Source of the DNA: a virus
Virus record (IMG/VR): IMGVR_UViG_3300009024_000013
Location: 1-61,090 of that record
Reading direction: 5' to 3' (one strand)
DNA length: 61,090 nucleotides
In this document: piece after piece, positions 2,794 through 36,777 of the stretch
How the letters are laid out: the number at the start of each line of letters is the position of its first letter
Position numbering within the stretch: position 1 is the first letter of the stretch
The notes under the pieces: model-generated
Seen by the model: only the letters and a program-made list of their open reading frames with translations
What the model was told of the DNA's origin: nothing
Databases searched by the model: none
Made by a program: the position numbers and the translations under genes

Positions 2794-3381
2794 ATGAAAT
2801 CATTAAGCGGAAAAAATAAAAGTTTAATTCAGAAATTTAGATTTTTAAAATCAGATTTAGAATGGAGAAAGGTAATAGTAGAAGAATCCAGGCAGGAATT
2901 TTTAGATGAAGTAGCTAAAAACGTAGATGACGTACAGGAATTATTAGGAACAGATAAACCTGATTCTAATGAGAATCCAAACGTTGAAGATAAAGAAAGC
3001 ATTTTAGAAAATAATCACAGTGATCCTGAAAACAAAAGTCTCAAGAAAATATACTGGAATATATGCAAACTAACGCATCCAGATAAGGATAAAACCAACA
3101 AGTATGAAGATATATTTAAAAGAGCCAGCTTGGCTTATGAAACTTTAAATGCTTTAGAATTATTTGTAATATGTGATGAACTTAAAATAGAATATGAAAT
3201 ATCAAAAGCCAATATGAAAATAGTAGACATAAATATTGCAGATCTTGAAAAACAAATAAGCAATGTAACAGGTACTTACATATTTAAATTTAATGAGTCA
3301 GAGACCAGTAAAGAAAAACAAGACATCGTTAATATGTTTATTATTACTAATAAATTAAAAAACCTAAAACGTAATAGGTAA
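2794..3381 (+). CDS. J-domain (DnaJ-like) protein
   Basis: A 195-residue protein whose residues 84-130 contain a J-domain: helix II KKIYWNICKLT, the diagnostic HPDK loop at 95-98, and helix III with FKRASLAYETLNA. J-domains stimulate the ATPase of Hsp70 (DnaK). There is no Gly/Phe-rich or zinc-binding region, so this is a minimal, class III-type J-protein with a charged, probably disordered N-terminal half and a C-terminal helical extension. It may redirect the host DnaK to phage proteins; the client is unknown. Confidence 0.75.
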   Translation: MKSLSGKNKSLIQKFRFLKSDLEWRKVIVEESRQEFLDEVAKNVDDVQELLGTDKPDSNENPNVEDKESILENNHSDPENKSLKKIYWNICKLTHPDKDKTNKYEDIFKRASLAYETLNALELFVICDELKIEYEISKANMKIVDINIADLEKQISNVTGTYIFKFNESETSKEKQDIVNMFIITNKLKNLKRNR

Positions 3382-21626: not shown

Positions 21627-21839
21627 TTAGCACATCCCCGATTCGTAGTCAAAATCATCTTCATTACTGTCTTTATTTACTATCCATCCGTTATTAGATA
21701 CGGCTATTTTTGCTCCCATTATAAACGCATTTAATATTGATGCTGTTGGTTTTTCACCAACTAAAACACACCAATGTTCTGCTATCTCCTTTAGTTCTTT
21801 ATCTGAACATATTAAGGGTTGGTAATTAGTTTTACTCAT
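21627..21839 (-). CDS. Cassette-array small protein 1 (last in array)
   Basis: A 70-residue protein, MSKTNYQPLICSD..., with a hydrophobic centre (ASILNAFIMGAKIAV) and an acidic end. It is the promoter-distal gene of the array, starting at a copy of the junction repeat but not ending in one. No function is recognised. Confidence 0.6.
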   Translation of the reverse strand: MSKTNYQPLICSDKELKEIAEHWCVLVGEKPTASILNAFIMGAKIAVSNNGWIVNKDSNEDDFDYESGMC

Positions 21840-21854
21840 CTTTTTTGTTTTGGT

Positions 21855-22079
21855 TTAGTTTATACATACTTCTACCCAACCTTTTTCAGAATGCTCTACA
21901 TCACAATCAATACCTTGATTCTTTAATTTATGTTCAAGCTTATGTGCTGCATCCCAAAGTCCCTTTTCAGGTACTTCATCATGTTCATCATCATAACAAA
22001 CATCTCCTCTACATTCGTAGAATTTATTTTCTGAATTATACTTAAAGGTATATCCATCTATTATTTCATCTTTACTCAT
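21855..22079 (-). CDS. Cassette-array small protein 2
   Basis: A 74-residue acidic protein (MSKDEIIDGYTFKYNSENKF...) with four Cys. It starts in one junction repeat and its stop codon lies at the edge of the next (AAC TAA ACC). No family is recognised. Confidence 0.6.
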   Translation of the reverse strand: MSKDEIIDGYTFKYNSENKFYECRGDVCYDDEHDEVPEKGLWDAAHKLEHKLKNQGIDCDVEHSEKGWVEVCIN

Positions 22080-22270
22080 CTTCTTTGTTTTGGTTTAATA
22101 CTTACTATTTTTTTACAATGATAGTTAAGTTGTCCCTTACCGTCCCATTCAATAGGACCTAATCTACCTGATCTTTCAAAAAACAAATCTCCTTTCTTAA
22201 AACTATCATCTCTGTCTTGTAGATGATAGGTATGATTTTTGTATTCAAATATCCATTCTCCTTTGCTCAT
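22076..22270 (-). CDS. Cassette-array small protein 3
   Basis: A 64-residue basic, beta-rich protein (MSKGEWIFEYKNHTYHLQDR...). It ends in SIKPKQRR, which is the junction repeat read in its second frame; the last bases overlap the next start. It resembles small protein-interaction modules in composition, but no family can be named. Confidence 0.6.
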   Translation of the reverse strand: MSKGEWIFEYKNHTYHLQDRDDSFKKGDLFFERSGRLGPIEWDGKGQLNYHCKKIVSIKPKQRR

Positions 22271-22511
22271 CTTTGTTTTGGTTTAATAGTTTCCACCAAT
22301 TATTAAAATGGTTTAAAACTTCATTTGTTGCATTGTTACCACCTTTGAAATATTCATAATGATAAGGTGATTTTGTAATACCATCAGCGTGTTTTAATCC
22401 ACTTCTTATTATACAATATCCTTTACCTTCTGAAACTTCAAACCAATCAGTCATAATCATTCCTCCAAATTTGAATGATGGTCTAAGTGTTTTTATTTCT
22501 TCTTCACTCAT
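22245..22511 (-). CDS. Cassette-array small protein 4
   Basis: An 88-residue protein (MSEEEIKTLRPSFKFGG...). It runs through the junction repeat (NQNKDE) and on for QRRMDI before stopping, because the following gene starts ATGAGCAAA instead of ATGAGTAAA, which removes the usual in-repeat stop. The overlap with the next gene is therefore 26 bases. Function unknown. Confidence 0.6.
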   Translation of the reverse strand: MSEEEIKTLRPSFKFGGMIMTDWFEVSEGKGYCIIRSGLKHADGITKSPYHYEYFKGGNNATNEVLNHFNNWWKLLNQNKDEQRRMDI

Positions 22512-22731
22512 CTTCTTTGTTTTGGTTTAATATTTCTAAAATCTTTTTTCTATTGTTAGACGAGAGTTTACTCTCTTTTTTAAGAATAAGTTCATATTCT
22601 TTTTGAATGTCTTCGAGGTCCCATTCTTCTACTTTTATAGATTTACCTTTAATAAAATCTTCTTCTCTTTGTTGTATATCACTAAGTACTTTAGCAACTT
22701 GGGGTGATACTGCAAATTCTCCTCTACTCAT
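22504..22731 (-). CDS. Cassette-array small protein 5
   Basis: A 75-residue charged helical protein (MSRGEFAVSPQVAKVLSD...), ending NQNKEDE within a junction repeat that carries one extra codon. Function unknown. Confidence 0.6.
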   Translation of the reverse strand: MSRGEFAVSPQVAKVLSDIQQREEDFIKGKSIKVEEWDLEDIQKEYELILKKESKLSSNNRKKILEILNQNKEDE

Positions 22732-22936
22732 CTTTGTTTTGGTTTAGTTCTTTTATTTTTTTAGCAACACTATCCCAGGCATTTTCTATTTGTTCAAATT
22801 CTTCTGGAAAATAGTCTTCAGATATTTCTAATCCATCTACAGTTACATAGGATCCCACACCTGGTCTTGTTGGTGTTATGTTGCTACTTAATAATTGTAG
22901 ATGTTGGTATTGTTCTTTAATATATTCTCTACTCAT
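22724..22936 (-). CDS. Cassette-array small protein 6
   Basis: A 70-residue protein (MSREYIKEQYQHLQLLSS...), ending in NQNKDE, the canonical first-frame reading of the junction repeat. A Gly/Pro-containing centre lies between two helices. Function unknown. Confidence 0.6.
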   Translation of the reverse strand: MSREYIKEQYQHLQLLSSNITPTRPGVGSYVTVDGLEISEDYFPEEFEQIENAWDSVAKKIKELNQNKDE

Positions 22937-23130
22937 CTTTGTTTTGGTTTAATCTCTTCTTCAATTATCTTTACCATTTCATCAAATGTAACTCCTTCTT
23001 CGTCTGCTCGTTGTTGTATGAATTTTGCTGGTAGATGTATATAATTTGCTTTAGCTAATCCTTTCTTATGAATTTCGTTAGCTGCTTTTAGTAACCTGCT
23101 GACTAATTCCTTATCTTCTTCTTTACTCAT
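22933..23130 (-). CDS. Cassette-array small protein 7
   Basis: A 65-residue helical protein (MSKEEDKELVSRLLKAANEI...). It ends in EIKPKQR, the second-frame reading of the junction repeat, and overlaps the next start by four bases. Function unknown. Confidence 0.6.
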   Translation of the reverse strand: MSKEEDKELVSRLLKAANEIHKKGLAKANYIHLPAKFIQQRADEEGVTFDEMVKIIEEEIKPKQR

Positions 23131-23551
23131 CTTTGTTTTGGTTTAGTTCTAATCTTAATACAAAATCTGGGTTCTTTTGCAAGTCTGTCATTGTTCTTAA
23201 TCTAAGTGTGGGATGTGGTGGCGTTACTAGTCTTGTACAATCACTAAACATACCATCACCTTCATATATTGCAAAATGAAATCCTACTGGTATATTTTTC
23301 CATTCAATAATACCGTTGTCATTTATAGTCCAAGGTAACCATTCCCATGTACTAGTTTTATCCCATAGAAGAATATCACCAACTTTTATTTTTTTTTGAT
23401 ACCTAGAAAATGTAAATTGATTAAAGTGTTCATGAAATGTTTCATAAGTACAAAAATCAGGCTCTAATCCCATTCGTCTTAAAACATAAGTTAAACAGGT
23501 TTCAGTTTTTGTTAATCTCACGGGTTTTAACTCTTCTTTAATTTTACTCAT
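23123..23551 (-). CDS. Cassette-array NlpC/P60- or CHAP-like protein
   Basis: At 142 residues this is the largest protein of the array. TETCLTYVLRRMG (about 16-28) followed by KVGDILLWDK (about 56-65) and GFHFAIYEGDGMFSDCTR (about 90-107) matches the Cys...GDI.hW...H.hIY order of papain-like NlpC/P60 or CHAP amidase folds, with C18 and the His before AIYEG as likely catalytic residues. It has no signal peptide, so a cytoplasmic target (a peptide or amide) or late use in lysis are both possible. It ends with NQNKDE from the junction repeat. Confidence 0.5.
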   Translation of the reverse strand: MSKIKEELKPVRLTKTETCLTYVLRRMGLEPDFCTYETFHEHFNQFTFSRYQKKIKVGDILLWDKTSTWEWLPWTINDNGIIEWKNIPVGFHFAIYEGDGMFSDCTRLVTPPHPTLRLRTMTDLQKNPDFVLRLELNQNKDE

Positions 23552-23718
23552 CTTTGTTTTGTTTTACTTAATCGTTTTAAATCATCTATACATTCACCCC
23601 AACCTTCCCAAAACCACTGAGGTAAATTAGAAAGATGACTAGGATGTCCTGGTTGTTCAGATAGCCATTCTTTAAGTTCAAATAATTGCTTACTTATTTT
23701 TTCAATTTCTTTACTCAT
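23548..23718 (-). CDS. Cassette-array small protein 9
   Basis: A 56-residue protein, MSKEIEKISKQLFELKEW..., with a Trp-rich centre (LPQWFWEGWGEC) and the ending SKTKQR from the junction repeat read in the KPKQR frame. It starts at a canonical repeat copy. Function unknown. Confidence 0.6.
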   Translation of the reverse strand: MSKEIEKISKQLFELKEWLSEQPGHPSHLSNLPQWFWEGWGECIDDLKRLSKTKQR

Positions 23719-23926
23719 CTTTGTTTTGGTTTGTAAATATTTGACCTAGTGCAAACATATTGTGTAATGCCTTAATTCTTTCCTCTTTGTCTTCACTAGT
23801 TAAATTGTCTAATTTTTCTGATAAGTTATGTATAAGTTCTTCCTCTATGAGTGAACTTTTAAACCCCTCTAAACTTTTAATGTCTTTTATTAATTCTAAT
23901 GATAAGTCTTCTATATTATTTCTCAT
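23711..23926 (-). CDS. Cassette-array small protein 10
   Basis: A 71-residue acidic helical protein (MRNNIEDLSLELIKDIKS...), one of two members not starting MS. It ends NQNKDE in the junction repeat. Function unknown. Confidence 0.55.
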   Translation of the reverse strand: MRNNIEDLSLELIKDIKSLEGFKSSLIEEELIHNLSEKLDNLTSEDKEERIKALHNMFALGQIFTNQNKDE

Positions 23927-23941
23927 CTTATTTGTTTTGGT

Positions 23942-24085
23942 TTAATATCTTCTACCTTTGAATCCTCCTATTAACATCTGCCACCATTTCAATTTAGGAA
24001 TAGGATGTGGCATTTGTTTTGGTTTAATCTTTTCTATGTTCTGCTTTTGTCTTTCTTCCGACTTATCTAAATAATCTTTACTCAT
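23942..24085 (-). CDS. Cassette-array small protein 11 (47 residues)
   Basis: A 47-residue basic protein, MSKDYLDKSEERQK... to GGFKGRRY. It contains an internal copy of the junction repeat, read as IKPKQM at residues 20-25, then a Pro/Trp-rich tail (PHPIPKLKWWQ). It may be a fusion of two former cassettes in which the internal repeat lost its stop codon. An in-frame ATG inside that copy could still start a 23-residue product. Confidence 0.55.
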   Translation of the reverse strand: MSKDYLDKSEERQKQNIEKIKPKQMPHPIPKLKWWQMLIGGFKGRRY

Positions 24086-24218
24086 CTTCTTTGTTTTGTT
24101 TTATTATATTTTCTAGCGTTTCTTTAATATACACTATATCAACAAATTCATCCTTTGGTGTTTCATCTATTTCATCTAATATATCGTATAAGGAATCTAT
24201 AATTTCTTCTTTACTCAT
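24078..24218 (-). CDS. Cassette-array small protein 12 (46 residues)
   Basis: A 46-residue acidic protein (MSKEEIIDSLYDILDEIDE...), ending KQNKEDE in a variant junction repeat and overlapping the next start by eight bases. It lies between canonical repeat copies and keeps the array spacing. Function unknown. Confidence 0.6.
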   Translation of the reverse strand: MSKEEIIDSLYDILDEIDETPKDEFVDIVYIKETLENIIKQNKEDE

Positions 24219-24471
24219 CTTTGTTTTGGTTTAATTGATTTCTGATTTCCTGCACGATTAAATGGCTGTATTCCATAGCCCAATCTTCAACTGAAAACAT
24301 CATCCTTTCTATTGGGTCTATTTCTGGTATTTTGAATTTTATTTTCTTATCATCAACATTCACATCAATACACATACCGAATTTACTGTGGATTTCAGTA
24401 TCAACTTTAATTTTGTTTTGTGGGAATAAACCAACTAATAACATTTCTAAATTATTGTCTTTTTTACTCAT
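24211..24471 (-). CDS. Cassette-array small protein 13
   Basis: An 86-residue protein (MSKKDNNLEMLLVGLFPQNK...) with a beta-rich middle (CIDVNVDDKKIKFKIPEID) and an amphipathic C-terminal helix, ending NQNKDE from the junction repeat. Function unknown. Confidence 0.6.
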   Translation of the reverse strand: MSKKDNNLEMLLVGLFPQNKIKVDTEIHSKFGMCIDVNVDDKKIKFKIPEIDPIERMMFSVEDWAMEYSHLIVQEIRNQLNQNKDE

Positions 24472-24483
24472 CTTTGTTTTGGT

Positions 24484-24804
24484 TTAATCTACCCACTTAA
24501 TGAAGTTAATATCTGATTCAACTTCTTCGACATCATTCCTATTTGGGTTTATTCTAAAGTCTAACTGTTGTATTCTTTTATCTTTATTAAAATCTTCCAT
24601 AAGATTCTCCCACTTTTTTATTTCTGACTGTCTCCATTCGGATAATGTTGTATTTTCATCAAACTTTAATTCTGGTCCCGCAATTGTCATATTAATACCT
24701 GAACCCCAGGTAAACTCTGTCATAGATTCTTTAGGGTGTTTTGGTTCACCATAAGACCATTTTAAAAAACATTTTAGGGGTTTAAATTCTTTTTTATTCA
24801 TCAT
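24484..24804 (-). CDS. Cassette-array protein 14
   Basis: A 106-residue protein beginning MMNKKEFKPLKCFLKW; either of the two adjacent Met codons may be the start. It contains an acidic, Trp-containing helical region and ends ...NFIKWVD with its stop codon formed by the first bases of the next junction repeat. The repeat upstream of this gene is degenerate. Function unknown. Confidence 0.6.
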   Translation of the reverse strand: MMNKKEFKPLKCFLKWSYGEPKHPKESMTEFTWGSGINMTIAGPELKFDENTTLSEWRQSEIKKWENLMEDFNKDKRIQQLDFRINPNRNDVEEVESDINFIKWVD

Positions 24805-24922
24805 CTTTTTGTTTAATTTTATGTTTTATCCAATCTTTAAAGACATCCCCACCCAAAACAGCTGTTACACCCATTAAAAATGGCACAAATAGGTATATAA
24901 TTACAATATCTATATTACTCAT
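24794..24922 (-). CDS. Cassette-array small membrane protein 15 (first in array)
   Basis: A 42-residue protein. MSNIDIVIIYLFVPFLMGV... gives one membrane helix (about residues 4-25), followed by DVFKDWIKHKIKQKDDE, a basic-acidic cytoplasmic tail. The end overlaps the next gene by 11 bases. It is preceded by a junction repeat that also carries the stop codon of DNA ligase. Confidence 0.55.
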   Translation of the reverse strand: MSNIDIVIIYLFVPFLMGVTAVLGGDVFKDWIKHKIKQKDDE

Positions 24923-24934
24923 CGTTGTTTTGGT

Positions 24935-26254
24935 TTATACATAATCAACTCTTCCGTTTTCATAAACTGCTTTAATCACTGGGAACCTAAGTGATTCTGT
25001 ACCTTGATTATTTTTTGTAGTTTCAAAGTACTGTACGGTTATGGTCTTACCTAATATTTTATTAGGATTTTTAAAATAACTTCTTCTTTCATCAATTGTA
25101 AAACCACTTCCAACCTGTACTCTGTTTCCTTTGTGTTCTATGATAACATTCTTTAGCATCATTTCTTCTACTTCAAGCCCATTGACAATTACACGGTTTG
25201 GGGAGTTCTCTAAGTCTACGACAATATACTCTTCATCATAGAATTTCTTTACTTTTAAGATATCAGTACTGCGTTTTCCCTGGTACTTATCGTCTTTTCT
25301 TAGCATTAGACCTTCCCAACCGCTTTGAACTGCATGGTCCATCTTAGACTCAAACATATCCCAACTGGTTAAGAGGTCCTGTTCAAGTACTCTGAAGTAT
25401 GTTGGTGGGACCATTGGGGTATAAACATGGTCGATTGACATTTGAAGGTTATCAAGCCTCTCACTTAATTTTTCCCTAGATGCCTTATTCTCAAAGTCTT
25501 CTAACGATATCATATCGAAAATTTGAAATAATGGGTTTTCGATGGTGTGGTCTTTTCTTTTAATTTCTTTGATGATTGATTGAAAATCTTCATCGCCATT
25601 TTCATCAACAATGCAAATCTCTCCATCCATTACAATGTTATAGAGTTTAAGACCTTCAAGTTCTTTGGCCACGTTTCCAAGTGTATCAAATGGTTTGCCA
25701 CTTCTACTTTTGAAAGTAACAGTTCCAAAATTGTCGAAGAATGCTAAACATCTGACTCCGTCCAATTTTCTAGAAAGGTACCATTCATCAGAATCAAGAT
25801 TGACTTTCTTTTTGGTTTTCTCATCATAAGTTGCGGCTAATGCTACATCGAATGTTGGAACCAAACCTGGTACAACTTTGTTAATCATTGAAGTTGTAGA
25901 ACGGGTCTTAAGATTCCGGTCGAAGATGTTATAAATAAGGTCTTCGTATTGTCTGTTTTCGAGAATAAATCTGTTTACGGCTGCAATGGCATCATGTCCT
26001 GTGATTATTCTATCATTTAACGTATCTAATAGGGTAAAGATGCTACCGTATTGGTTTCCGACTGGACTAACCAGGTCACTTCTCTTTTTAAGATTTTTTG
26101 AAGTAACATAATACTGTTTAAAGGGGGAATATACATACCTAAGGGCTTGAAGGACCTCCTGGTCTGATATATAGTCTCTTAAGACATTTAATTTATCAGT
26201 GTTTGAGTTTGTTGAGTTACTTCTCTCTACGAATTGCTGTAATCTATTAAACAT
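24935..26254 (-). CDS. ATP-dependent DNA ligase
   Basis: A 439-residue ligase. The adenylation motif SRKLDGVR (about 144-151, Lys nucleophile) is followed by motif III-like NIVMDGEICI, motif IV EGLMLRK and motif V DILKVKKF, and then an OB-fold region ending ...RVDYV. The N-terminal ~130 residues are a helical DNA-binding region, as in T4 gp30. It seals nicks during replication and repair. It has an early-type promoter element upstream and its stop codon lies in the first junction repeat, so it probably heads the transcript of the whole small-gene array. Confidence 0.92.
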   Translation of the reverse strand: MFNRLQQFVERSNSTNSNTDKLNVLRDYISDQEVLQALRYVYSPFKQYYVTSKNLKKRSDLVSPVGNQYGSIFTLLDTLNDRIITGHDAIAAVNRFILENRQYEDLIYNIFDRNLKTRSTTSMINKVVPGLVPTFDVALAATYDEKTKKKVNLDSDEWYLSRKLDGVRCLAFFDNFGTVTFKSRSGKPFDTLGNVAKELEGLKLYNIVMDGEICIVDENGDEDFQSIIKEIKRKDHTIENPLFQIFDMISLEDFENKASREKLSERLDNLQMSIDHVYTPMVPPTYFRVLEQDLLTSWDMFESKMDHAVQSGWEGLMLRKDDKYQGKRSTDILKVKKFYDEEYIVVDLENSPNRVIVNGLEVEEMMLKNVIIEHKGNRVQVGSGFTIDERRSYFKNPNKILGKTITVQYFETTKNNQGTESLRFPVIKAVYENGRVDYV

Positions 26255-26285: not shown

Positions 26286-27107
26286 TTAACTATAGTATTT
26301 AGGATTAGGTAAACCTGAATAATGGTCCCACTGATCTTCATCTATTTTTTTCCATTGGTGTTCAGGTCTATACCATATCGTTCTTCCGGTTCCATCTTTT
26401 TCTCTAATCATGTCACTATTACCATAGCATTTCATAAAATTACCTGACTCTTTTAAAAATGGATTTTTCCAATCTTTAATGCTTCCTCCGCCCATGATAT
26501 AAGCTAATTCTGGCATATATTTACAAAGTTTTAATATGTCTGGATATTTTTCTATTGCTTCACTTGCTTTCATAAAAGGACTTAGTTCCTCGATTCTATA
26601 AATTATTTCAGCTCTTAAATAGTTACCTATACCATTAAAATACTTTTGATTCAAAAGTATTTCACATATAGGTTTATTAAATATTTTCTTATGTAAATTA
26701 GATTTAACATTACTAACAAATTCCTCAAAATCAAGAGTTGGGTCAGGGCCTCTGTCATTTGACCACTCCTGTCCTGGCCACCATTTACCAAATCTTCTCA
26801 TGTCAATAAATGATAATGACATTCCACAAGTTGATTCAAAAATAATATGCGAATGTTTATGCTCTTCACCTGTCTTAGTTATTCTAAAATAACCTGACAT
26901 ACCCATTGTCATTCTTATAGGATAATTGTTCATATATACTATTAACTCCTTACCTCTACTTTTGGCTTTAATAGTAAATGATGGATGTTTTTGAAATAAG
27001 GGTTTCCATTTATGTTCTGGATTATTCTTAACTTTATTAAAGGTTTTTCCTTTAACTGTTTGATTTATATAATCCGCTGTTAATCTAAGTTCTGCTAATT
27101 CAGGCAT
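26286..27107 (-). CDS. Fpg/Nei family DNA glycosylase (zincless finger)
   Basis: A 273-residue enzyme that excises oxidised bases and nicks the strand. It begins MPELAE, giving the catalytic Pro2 and Glu3, and has a basic segment (TIKAKSRGKELIVYM) with the conserved Lys. The helix-two-turn-helix is LLNQKYFNGIGNYLRAEIIYR. The C-terminal region (FMKCYGNSDMIREKDGTGRTIWYRPEHQW) has the strand order of the usual zinc finger but only one Cys, so the metal site is lost, as in NEIL1-type 'zincless' members. It sits between the ligase and a small gene on the same strand and probably serves repair of phage DNA. Confidence 0.9.
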   Translation of the reverse strand: MPELAELRLTADYINQTVKGKTFNKVKNNPEHKWKPLFQKHPSFTIKAKSRGKELIVYMNNYPIRMTMGMSGYFRITKTGEEHKHSHIIFESTCGMSLSFIDMRRFGKWWPGQEWSNDRGPDPTLDFEEFVSNVKSNLHKKIFNKPICEILLNQKYFNGIGNYLRAEIIYRIEELSPFMKASEAIEKYPDILKLCKYMPELAYIMGGGSIKDWKNPFLKESGNFMKCYGNSDMIREKDGTGRTIWYRPEHQWKKIDEDQWDHYSGLPNPKYYS

Positions 27108-35325: not shown

Positions 35326-36777
35326 TTAAAAATTAAGTTCTACTTGCTGCTGTTCATCTTCATTGGAAGAGTATTCTTTTAATTCTATGTTTAATCTCTT
35401 AGCTGTTCTTTTTCTAAAAGGATGCAGTTTGGAATTAGGAACAACTTTTGTATTTAATCCATATTTAGATATTATACTTAGGTATTCTGTGAAATCATTA
35501 CTTTGTATTTCAGCATTAGGATTACCTATTATTTTCCAAAATCTTTCAGGTATCTCTTCGTATTCTAATGTTTTTTCATTTATTATATAAAGAGGATATT
35601 TGTCTTCGTCACTCAATGGCTTTTTAGAACCAGTTTTAACCATGTTTATATTTCTTTTTAAGTGAACATTGAATTCAGTTAAACCTAATGCAACTAATTG
35701 TCTATTAATAGGCTCAACTATCAGTGAAAAAAACTGTTTACTATAATCTAAAGGAAGAGCAACTTCTGTTGGATAATTACCAGGTGAATATGCAAACACA
35801 TCCCATTCCTTATTGTTTTCTTTAGGATAATAATACTTTATTTTTTCACCTTCTTTAACCTTTTGATATTTACCCGTTAATTCGTTGATTACTAAAAGGT
35901 GATTATAGTAAGCAGCTGCTCTTGCATATATAGGGATTCCTTTAAGTAAAGTTAGCTTAGTTTCATTTTTTACATATTTGTTATATACCCTACAACTAAA
36001 TGTTTGAGCCAATTCATCAGTTGTTTTTAATTTCATTTCTTTTTTTATAGATTCAAATAGAGGAATAAGATCCTCCTCTGGATTTATAGACGATCCTTTT
36101 TCTAAGATTATTTTTGTTAACTTAGATAAATGATTTCTAGCCCATATTGGATAAGAACCCTTTATCATTTCTAATCCCTTAAATACATCATACTCTTTAC
36201 CTTTTTCCTTTAAAAGAGTTTGATCAGAATTGGGTTCATATGAAACTCTAAGGGCGTAGTTTTTCTTTTTCAGCCACATGGCCTTAGCAGATAAGTTTTC
36301 AAGTTCAAAATTTTGTTGATTGACTGTATTAAAATGTTTTCCGTATTTGTCAAAAGCTGTATTAAAATATTCAGCTAACCTGTATTCATCAATTTTAATA
36401 CATAACTTTAAATATTGTTCTTCTGTTAATTTAGGTAGCCCTTGTATAGAATTAATAGCTGAACCAAACTCTACATATATAGAATCGGTATCTGTATAAA
36501 TAGCTGCTTCTGAATTTATAGGTTTAATATCATATTTGTCTATACCTAGTTTTTTATGAAGCTCGTTATCTAAATGCCACCTTTCTTTAAAATAAAAGTT
36601 AACGGCTTTAATTGTAAATTTAATAAGGTCTTGTCCTTGCAATGTTATACTTTGCGCTAAATCTACATTAAAGAAATAAAACCACTTATTTCCAAATGCA
36701 CCATATATGGAATTAATAAGTAGTTTAATTGCGAGTTGTTCTAAGTCTAATTTTTTGTATAAAGATTCTTTATTCAT
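35326..36777 (-). CDS. Family-B DNA polymerase, C-terminal half only
   Basis: A 483-residue protein with the C-terminal palm and thumb of a T4 gp43-type polymerase. Motif B is KLLINSIYGAFGNKWF (17-32) and motif C is YTDTDSIYVEF (about 94-104), with the third palm strand and thumb following. The N-terminal domain, the 3'-5' exonuclease and motif A (DxxSLYPS) are absent. Upstream is a divergent gene with its own promoter, not the missing half, so the polymerase is encoded in two pieces. The C-terminus QQQVELNF looks like a sliding-clamp binding tail. The partner must lie outside the window. Confidence 0.88.
   Translation of the reverse strand: MNKESLYKKLDLEQLAIKLLINSIYGAFGNKWFYFFNVDLAQSITLQGQDLIKFTIKAVNFYFKERWHLDNELHKKLGIDKYDIKPINSEAAIYTDTDSIYVEFGSAINSIQGLPKLTEEQYLKLCIKIDEYRLAEYFNTAFDKYGKHFNTVNQQNFELENLSAKAMWLKKKNYALRVSYEPNSDQTLLKEKGKEYDVFKGLEMIKGSYPIWARNHLSKLTKIILEKGSSINPEEDLIPLFESIKKEMKLKTTDELAQTFSCRVYNKYVKNETKLTLLKGIPIYARAAAYYNHLLVINELTGKYQKVKEGEKIKYYYPKENNKEWDVFAYSPGNYPTEVALPLDYSKQFFSLIVEPINRQLVALGLTEFNVHLKRNINMVKTGSKKPLSDEDKYPLYIINEKTLEYEEIPERFWKIIGNPNAEIQSNDFTEYLSIISKYGLNTKVVPNSKLHPFRKRTAKRLNIELKEYSSNEDEQQQVELNF

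Follow-up and report, generated by a model that had tools for sequence, protein, structure and literature searches.

Single-gene cassettes probably joined by a phase-neutral stop/start module in a T4-type phage

The small-gene array and its junction element

The stretch of viral DNA analysed here, all 61,090 nucleotides of IMG/VR record IMGVR_UViG_3300009024_000013 (the window), carries on its minus strand between 21627 and 24922 a series of 15 open reading frames (ORFs) of 42–142 amino acids, which are packed end to end in the window ORF list, as an earlier reading made from the letters alone (the sequence-only reading) had described. Intergenic space is zero at the junctions of this array, and the genes meet in a repeated element of about 24 bases with the consensus T-AAACCAAAACAAA-G-ATGAGTAA. 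The element supplies a stop in each phase together with the leader and start of the next gene, and we consider it probable that the array consists of single-gene cassettes of a T4-type phage, joined by this fixed, phase-neutral stop/start module. The first element overlaps the stop codon of a DNA ligase gene, which forms the fixed left border of the array in related phages (Table 1).

The core AAACCAAAACAAA, with at most one mismatch, had 15 copies in the window, every one of them on the minus strand and within 21844–24936, compared to 0.32 expected and a maximum of two in 100 shuffles, and the 20-mer with up to three mismatches was found 11 times vs 0.03 expected. Outside the array, three sites on the minus strand and one on the plus strand (≤2 mismatches) have an ATG close behind. 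The sequence-only reading had placed the same sequence at every junction, and this holds for 14 of the 15 gene starts, where the element is near-identical, whereas the junction at gene start 24804 is degenerate. The spacer between core and ATG is variable, being mostly G and otherwise GAAG, TAAG or AAAG. Three stops lie within the element, namely a TAA at its 5' edge, a TGA overlapping the start codon (ATGA) and a TAA one base out of frame inside ATGAGTAA, and upstream genes end in it as ...NQNKDE-stop, as ...KPKQR-stop or via the 5'-edge TAA, exactly as first proposed. One of the 15 core copies (24013–24025) lies inside the gene at 23942–24085, which has a related gene in locus L014, and suggests that two cassettes were fused across a decayed junction.

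Apart from these ends, the array proteins appear unrelated, as had been claimed. The best pair shares 27% identity over 44 amino acids (E 4e-4 without composition correction), and many other weak matches consist of the shared element-encoded ends alone. Tandem duplication would repeat ends in this manner, and short repeats can confuse assembly, but diverged tandem paralogues with inherited ends, or an assembly artefact, are highly improbable explanations. Paralogy among the 15 proteins, which the sequence-only reading had named as a finding that would speak against it, is unconvincing, and arrays are met again in other contigs: that of the window in L010/L142 and, up to the end of the contig, in L023/L143, that of L144 in L145 and L148, and that of L056 in L085.

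The stops were assessed in a census of 110 of 183 loci (L001–L087, L094, L096, L098, L109, L135, L136, L144, L146, L170–L183 and the window), from which 17 redundant loci were dropped to leave 93. All three stops were present in 233 of the 455 elements with up to two core mismatches in these non-redundant loci, and in a slightly smaller set the frequency was 202 of 388 elements vs 21 of 4980 random stretches inside cassettes. Among 310 cassettes, 43, 54 and 69 end at the frame-1, frame-2 and frame-3 stops, respectively, and 16 stop inside the core or spacer. Stops were mostly kept where the upstream gene has no need of them: where the upstream gene ends in frame 2 or frame 3, the unneeded T edge was retained in 80% and 87%, respectively, and where it ends in frame 1 or frame 2, the unneeded third stop was retained in 67% and 70%. 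One protein body (family F2) carries the tail KPKEDE in L004 and L050 and the tail NQNKDE in L025 and L078. In L049 (6616–6906) the F2 body is fused to a longer tail ahead of the element, possibly through a cassette fusion.

On the leader side, the element carries A at positions -3, -6, -12 and -13, and A at these positions is, in the text cited, reported to favour initiation in Flavobacterium johnsoniae (PMC6847099). Leaders of the 62 window genes of ≥90 amino acids outside the array are A-rich but unshared, and three of them are Shine-Dalgarno-like. It is possible, though we doubt it, that the element is only a strong translation-initiation signal, which each newcomer gene brings or evolves as a favoured leader, and that whole genes are exchanged by illegitimate or flanking recombination with selection keeping intact genes. 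The leader does fit known A-rich initiation determinants, but a pure initiation signal does not require three stops to be kept where the upstream gene needs none. As T4-type phages carry the element where small genes start, it might also be an operator at which an RNA-binding protein represses the translation of early genes, as RegA does at its sites in T4. This is unlikely, as an operator likewise has no need of three stop frames. RegA (PF01818) was matched in none of 17 records, but the control genomes gave no match either, so that this count does not demonstrate its absence.

Distribution of the element and exchange of cassettes

The sequence-only reading had proposed searching genomes for the consensus. 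The exact 24-mer was found in 87 stretches of IMG/VR uncultured viral contigs, compared to none for each of two rearranged 24-mers of the same composition, and a 27-mer variant with the spacer GAAG was found in 16. A 32-base query against 50,697 GenBank phage records gave no match above 37 bits, which is below the score of the full 24-mer, and the 20-mer was found in four stretches in 257 billion bases of bacterial and archaeal genomes. Fifty whole records, all selected for holding the 24-mer, contained 325 element copies (≤2 mismatches) vs six for the reversed 18-mer, with copies confined to one strand in 46 of the 50. The core ahead of an ATG (one mismatch) was counted 324 times in the loci vs 0–7 times for 20 permuted cores; the reversed core (353 vs 444) was rejected as a two-mismatch control because it is itself two mismatches from the core. 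Given the counts for the 24-mer and its rearrangements and the rarity of the 20-mer in bacterial and archaeal genomes, the element is no general host leader, which argues against its being an initiation signal only.

The four bacterial and archaeal stretches are not decisive for host identity. The copy in L091, from a Chryseobacterium metagenome-assembled genome (MAG), is a single one inside an opposite-strand ORF and probably due to chance, and one good copy is present in each of L092 and L093. The contig L094 (CAKZOX010000136.1), which had been placed in a Campylobacteraceae MAG, resembles a phage and bears an array, with relatives of families F5 and F55. Phage contig L064 (5824 bases) holds the element and, ahead of five ATGs, a second leader, AAATAAAGGTT, which is possibly another junction family.

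Exchange was assessed in 68 testable between-locus cassette pairs of 75–100% identity, after 10 pairs with too-short flanks and 79 with identity <0.75 had been set aside. A 150-nucleotide flank was taken as unrelated below 0.60 identity, random flanks having a mean of 0.49 and a 95th percentile of 0.537. Both flanks were unrelated in 66 pairs, one flank was related in one pair and both in another. The exchanged pairs represent 25 families and 63 cassettes, and 18 of them are at least 95% identical; base-level views were made for 32 cassette pairs. In the window, exchanged partners were found for 5 of the 13 element-bounded cassettes (starts 24218, 23551, 22731, 22270 and 22079).

The ends of homology were also located in 80 non-redundant local alignments that were not tied to the element. 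These ended in the element zone on the left in 34 cases, on the right in 30 and on both sides in 15, compared to 7.6, 7.4 and 0.8 upon random placement (maximum of 500 placements: 16, 15 and 5). In a second count, 174 of 233 homology ends inside arrays fell at elements, a majority that speaks against a mere initiation signal (47.1 expected, 3.7-fold), and 37 fell elsewhere than at gene starts or elements (0.21-fold). A single replacement can be followed in the arrays of L056/L085 and L045, which are 99–100% identical save for a 138-nucleotide cassette replaced by an unrelated one of 152 nucleotides; the 5' element and the next gene are the same, and the 3' element differs (AAACCAAAAGAAG vs AAACCAAAACAAAG). 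Element variants sometimes travel with the cassette (F2; L056), as they would if each newcomer gene brought its own leader.

The orthologous ligase loci were selected by the ligase protein and not by the element. L142 and L143 match the window, and an element lies at the ligase stop in L144, L145 and L148 (92% amino acid identity), L146 (88%) and L147 (85%). Nucleotide homology of L144–L148 to the window (83–91%) ends 5–15 nucleotides past the ATG of the first element, and the number of elements after the ligase gene is 14 in the window, four in the L144 type, five in L146 and one plus a decayed copy in L147. Past that point, the only further homology to the window found in these loci consists of two short matches of 30–42 nucleotides around an element in the L144 type. 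Among distant ligase loci, the element was present in none of the six of nine that were examined; four of these (about 48–51% amino acid identity) are informative, as the sequences of L149 and L156 break off in the ligase gene or at its end. Cassette gain, loss and changes of order with breakpoints inside the repeat had been predicted from the window, and the exchanged pairs, the unforced alignment ends and the differing contents of the ligase loci agree with this prediction.

The window encodes a T4-type portal (PF07230, E 3.5e-62), which makes the comparison with T4 drawn in the sequence-only reading apt, and of 45 other records, 14 have a portal of this type. Twelve of these 14 and the window form three groups, across which the portals are 14–33% identical. 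Between members of different groups, a 295-nucleotide cassette is 98% identical (G005 vs G019, portals 32%), a 127-nucleotide cassette 96% (G011 vs G019, portals 33%) and the F0 gene 83% over 206 nucleotides (window vs G005, portals 20%). At the level of sequence, these comparisons demonstrate that deeply diverged phages hold the same cassettes in their arrays, and that the homology stops at the module on either side. The best portal relatives come from uncultured huge phages, Prevotella Lak phages and Tenacibaculum phages, and Tenacibaculum, Prevotella and Chryseobacterium phages are among the portal matches listed; the host probably belongs to the Bacteroidota. Single cassettes that move across lineages, in arrays with one element per gene, could also mean that the element is recognised by a site-specific recombinase of its own, much as in integrons. 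Judged by the element alone, this is quite improbable, as the element is asymmetric and has no dyad, and its RNA is unstructured (minimum free energy 0 for the 33-mer).

Proposed mechanism and the genes concerned

Several observations weigh against phase-neutral cassettes. Gene starts that lack the element are also enriched in breakpoints, holding 22 homology ends vs 8.2 expected (2.7-fold), which favours the initiation-signal alternative, as breakpoints could come to lie there through nothing more than selection for the exchange of whole genes. Nor do all cassettes make use of phase-neutral stopping: 90 of the 310 stop before the element and 38 beyond it. Of 38 IMG/VR relatives of the F5 protein, seven have the element at both ends as judged by eye and 31 do not (a three-mismatch flag marked 12 upstream, five of which were judged spurious by eye), and two of nine F2 relatives, with 88% and 92% amino acid identity, lack the element that the other seven have. 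The cassette genes are therefore not dependent on the element and also live outside arrays. The same genes in the same order without the repeat had been named as a refutation; the genes do occur without it, as in the 31 F5 relatives, for which gene order was not compared. Moreover, the relatives are without exception contigs from metagenomes, often fragmentary, and most loci were selected for the 24-mer. Whole genes are the unit of exchange; it is the conservation and shape of the element, rather than the breakpoint count, that speak for its being more than a gene border. In L097, an identical 26-base direct repeat (2970–2995 and 3207–3232) flanks an element-less F5 relative.

If the array is indeed made of cassettes joined by a stop/start module, the A-rich leader would act as an initiation signal for ribosomes not reliant on Shine-Dalgarno pairing, perhaps with termination–reinitiation coupling at the ATGA. 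Because the junctions are all alike and phase-neutral, recombination between any two modules would yield an intact, expressed operon, and single genes could be gained, lost or replaced freely. We infer that exchange may proceed by short-homology recombination in mixed infections, in which phage enzymes would anneal or exchange strands. The cassettes may be early accessory genes, acting for example in host takeover or counter-defence. We lean slightly towards the broader proposal of a recombinase-free cassette system, with a phase-neutral socket common to diverged uncultured lineages and a pool of tiny accessory genes.

Protein function scans covered 10 of the 15 array proteins and gave no trusted assignment: Pfam returned one sub-threshold match (DUF6324, E 0.009), PHROGs weak matches of unknown function only (best E 0.0076) and PADLOC one weak match (E 0.0098). 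Modelling the 142-residue protein alone gave a useless model, with a predicted local distance difference test (pLDDT) score of 40. The F5 family model reached a pLDDT of 91.8; it had no PDB match at E 0.001 and a single relative among viruses, a protein of Virus NIOZ-UU157 that is uncharacterised. F5 is confidently predicted to be a novel small fold, and none of 25 F5 members matched a PHROG at E 0.01.

The coordinates of the array are collected in Table 1. Next to the ligase gene lies a Fapy-DNA glycosylase-like gene (26286–27107; PF01149, E 4.6e-17). Elsewhere in the window, an ORF of 483 amino acids (35326–36777) matches the DNA polymerase B model only at positions 148–238 of 453, and the DNA polymerase B of the window may be split.

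Table 1. Genes and junction elements of the array, listed in the direction of the minus strand
Feature	Coordinates	Strand	Remarks
ATP-dependent DNA ligase gene	24935..26254	-	Upstream of array; PF01068, E 3.2e-17
Whole cassette array	21627..24936	-	15 small genes and junction elements
Element 1	24917..24936	-	AAACCAAAACAACGATGAGT; start of gene 24794–24922
Array gene, 42 aa	24794..24922	-	
Degenerate junction	24801..24816	-	AAATTAAACAAAAAGATGATG type
Array gene, 106 aa	24484..24804	-	Moves without intact element at start
Element	24466..24485	-	Exact 20-mer
Array gene, 86 aa	24211..24471	-	C-terminus NQNKDE
Element	24213..24232	-	Exact 20-mer
Array gene, 46 aa (F1)	24078..24218	-	Relatives in L015 and L055, flanks unrelated
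Element	24080..24102	-	AAAACAAAACAAAGAAGATGAGT
Array gene, 47 aa	23942..24085	-	Internal core copy
Core copy within gene	24013..24025	-	Probable decayed junction
Element	23924..23943	-	AAACCAAAACAAATAAGATGAG
Array gene, 71 aa	23711..23926	-	
Element	23713..23732	-	Exact 20-mer
Array gene, 56 aa	23548..23718	-	C-terminus KTKQR
Element	23546..23565	-	1 mismatch
Array gene, 142 aa (F8)	23123..23551	-	L007 cassette 97% identical, flanks unrelated
Element	23125..23144	-	Exact 20-mer
Array gene, 65 aa (F4)	22933..23130	-	C-terminus KPKQR; relatives in L013 and L032
Element	22931..22950	-	Exact 20-mer
Array gene, 70 aa	22724..22936	-	
Element	22726..22745	-	Exact 20-mer
Array gene, 75 aa	22504..22731	-	L135 cassette 85% identical, flanks unrelated
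Element	22506..22528	-	AAACCAAAACAAAGAAGATGAGT
Array gene, 88 aa	22245..22511	-	
Element	22265..22284	-	1 mismatch
Array gene, 64 aa (F0)	22076..22270	-	L025 cassette 94% identical, flanks unrelated; L008 83% over 206 nt
Element	22074..22096	-	AAACCAAAACAAAGAAGATGAGT
Array gene, 74 aa (F5)	21855..22079	-	Relatives in arrays of L048, L076, L094, L096, L098 and L109, flanks unrelated
Last element	21834..21856	-	AAACCAAAACAAAAAAGATGAGT
Last array gene, 70 aa	21627..21839	-	No element at its end
aa, amino acids; nt, nucleotides

It has long been asked how phages can take up single small genes while keeping their operons intact. The borders of mosaic genomes usually have no common sequence, according to the text cited (PMC3029335), but here the border sequence is visible, short and reused, and its form explains why insertion in any phase works. 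This makes cassette exchange testable and provides a 24-base tag for finding small accessory genes, possibly for host takeover or counter-defence, in metagenomes. For hosts in which Shine-Dalgarno signals are not used, the element might also serve as a portable stop/start linker.

Comparison with known systems

Arbiol et al. 2010 are said to have described mobile regulatory cassettes of T4-type phages, consisting of an early promoter and a stem-loop. These resemble the array in that small early genes are shuffled in connection with a repeated regulatory sequence, but the RNA of the element forms no stem-loop and its unit is translational. As for a counterpart of the promoter, no excess of sigma-70-like sites was found (28 vs 33.0 expected), Bacteroidota promoters being outside the scan. 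Integron cassettes consist of one gene each with one shared, recombination-like sequence per gene, and are exchanged between arrays. The array is similar in all three respects, but in contrast to attC the element has no dyad and forms no structured site. No description of a phase-neutral stop/start junction, or of single-gene arrays of such a kind, was found among the papers listed in the literature searches.

The closest known system is the start-associated sequence (SAS) of cluster K mycobacteriophages, a motif similar to which occurs in cluster EF Microbacterium phages. According to the portions of text cited, SAS has a 13-bp consensus, GGGATAGGAGCCC, with a Shine-Dalgarno core, is present in 11–19 copies per genome and absent or rare in the host, and includes some copies that hold the upstream stop codon; it is mostly situated in gaps >50 bp, and about half of the copies are preceded by a 17-bp inverted repeat, the extended SAS (ESAS) (PMC3203893, PMC12699233, PMC7302621). 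Both SAS and the element are short, conserved and asymmetric motifs that precede the start codons of some, but not all, non-structural genes, and most copies point the same way. SAS differs in its Shine-Dalgarno core, as the core AAACCAAAACAAA has none. Unlike SAS, moreover, the element closes three frames, overlaps both genes and bounds cassettes that are exchanged singly between deeply diverged phages, a kind of exchange not reported for SAS in the text cited.

A further parallel is found in the boundary sequences of mosaic phage genomes, short sequences shared at module borders and proposed, in the text cited, to allow homologous recombination (PMC3029335). As with these, a short sequence is shared at both borders of the exchanged module and homology ends there. 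In contrast to boundary sequences, one and the same sequence is reused here at nearly every border of the array, and it doubles as a stop/start signal.

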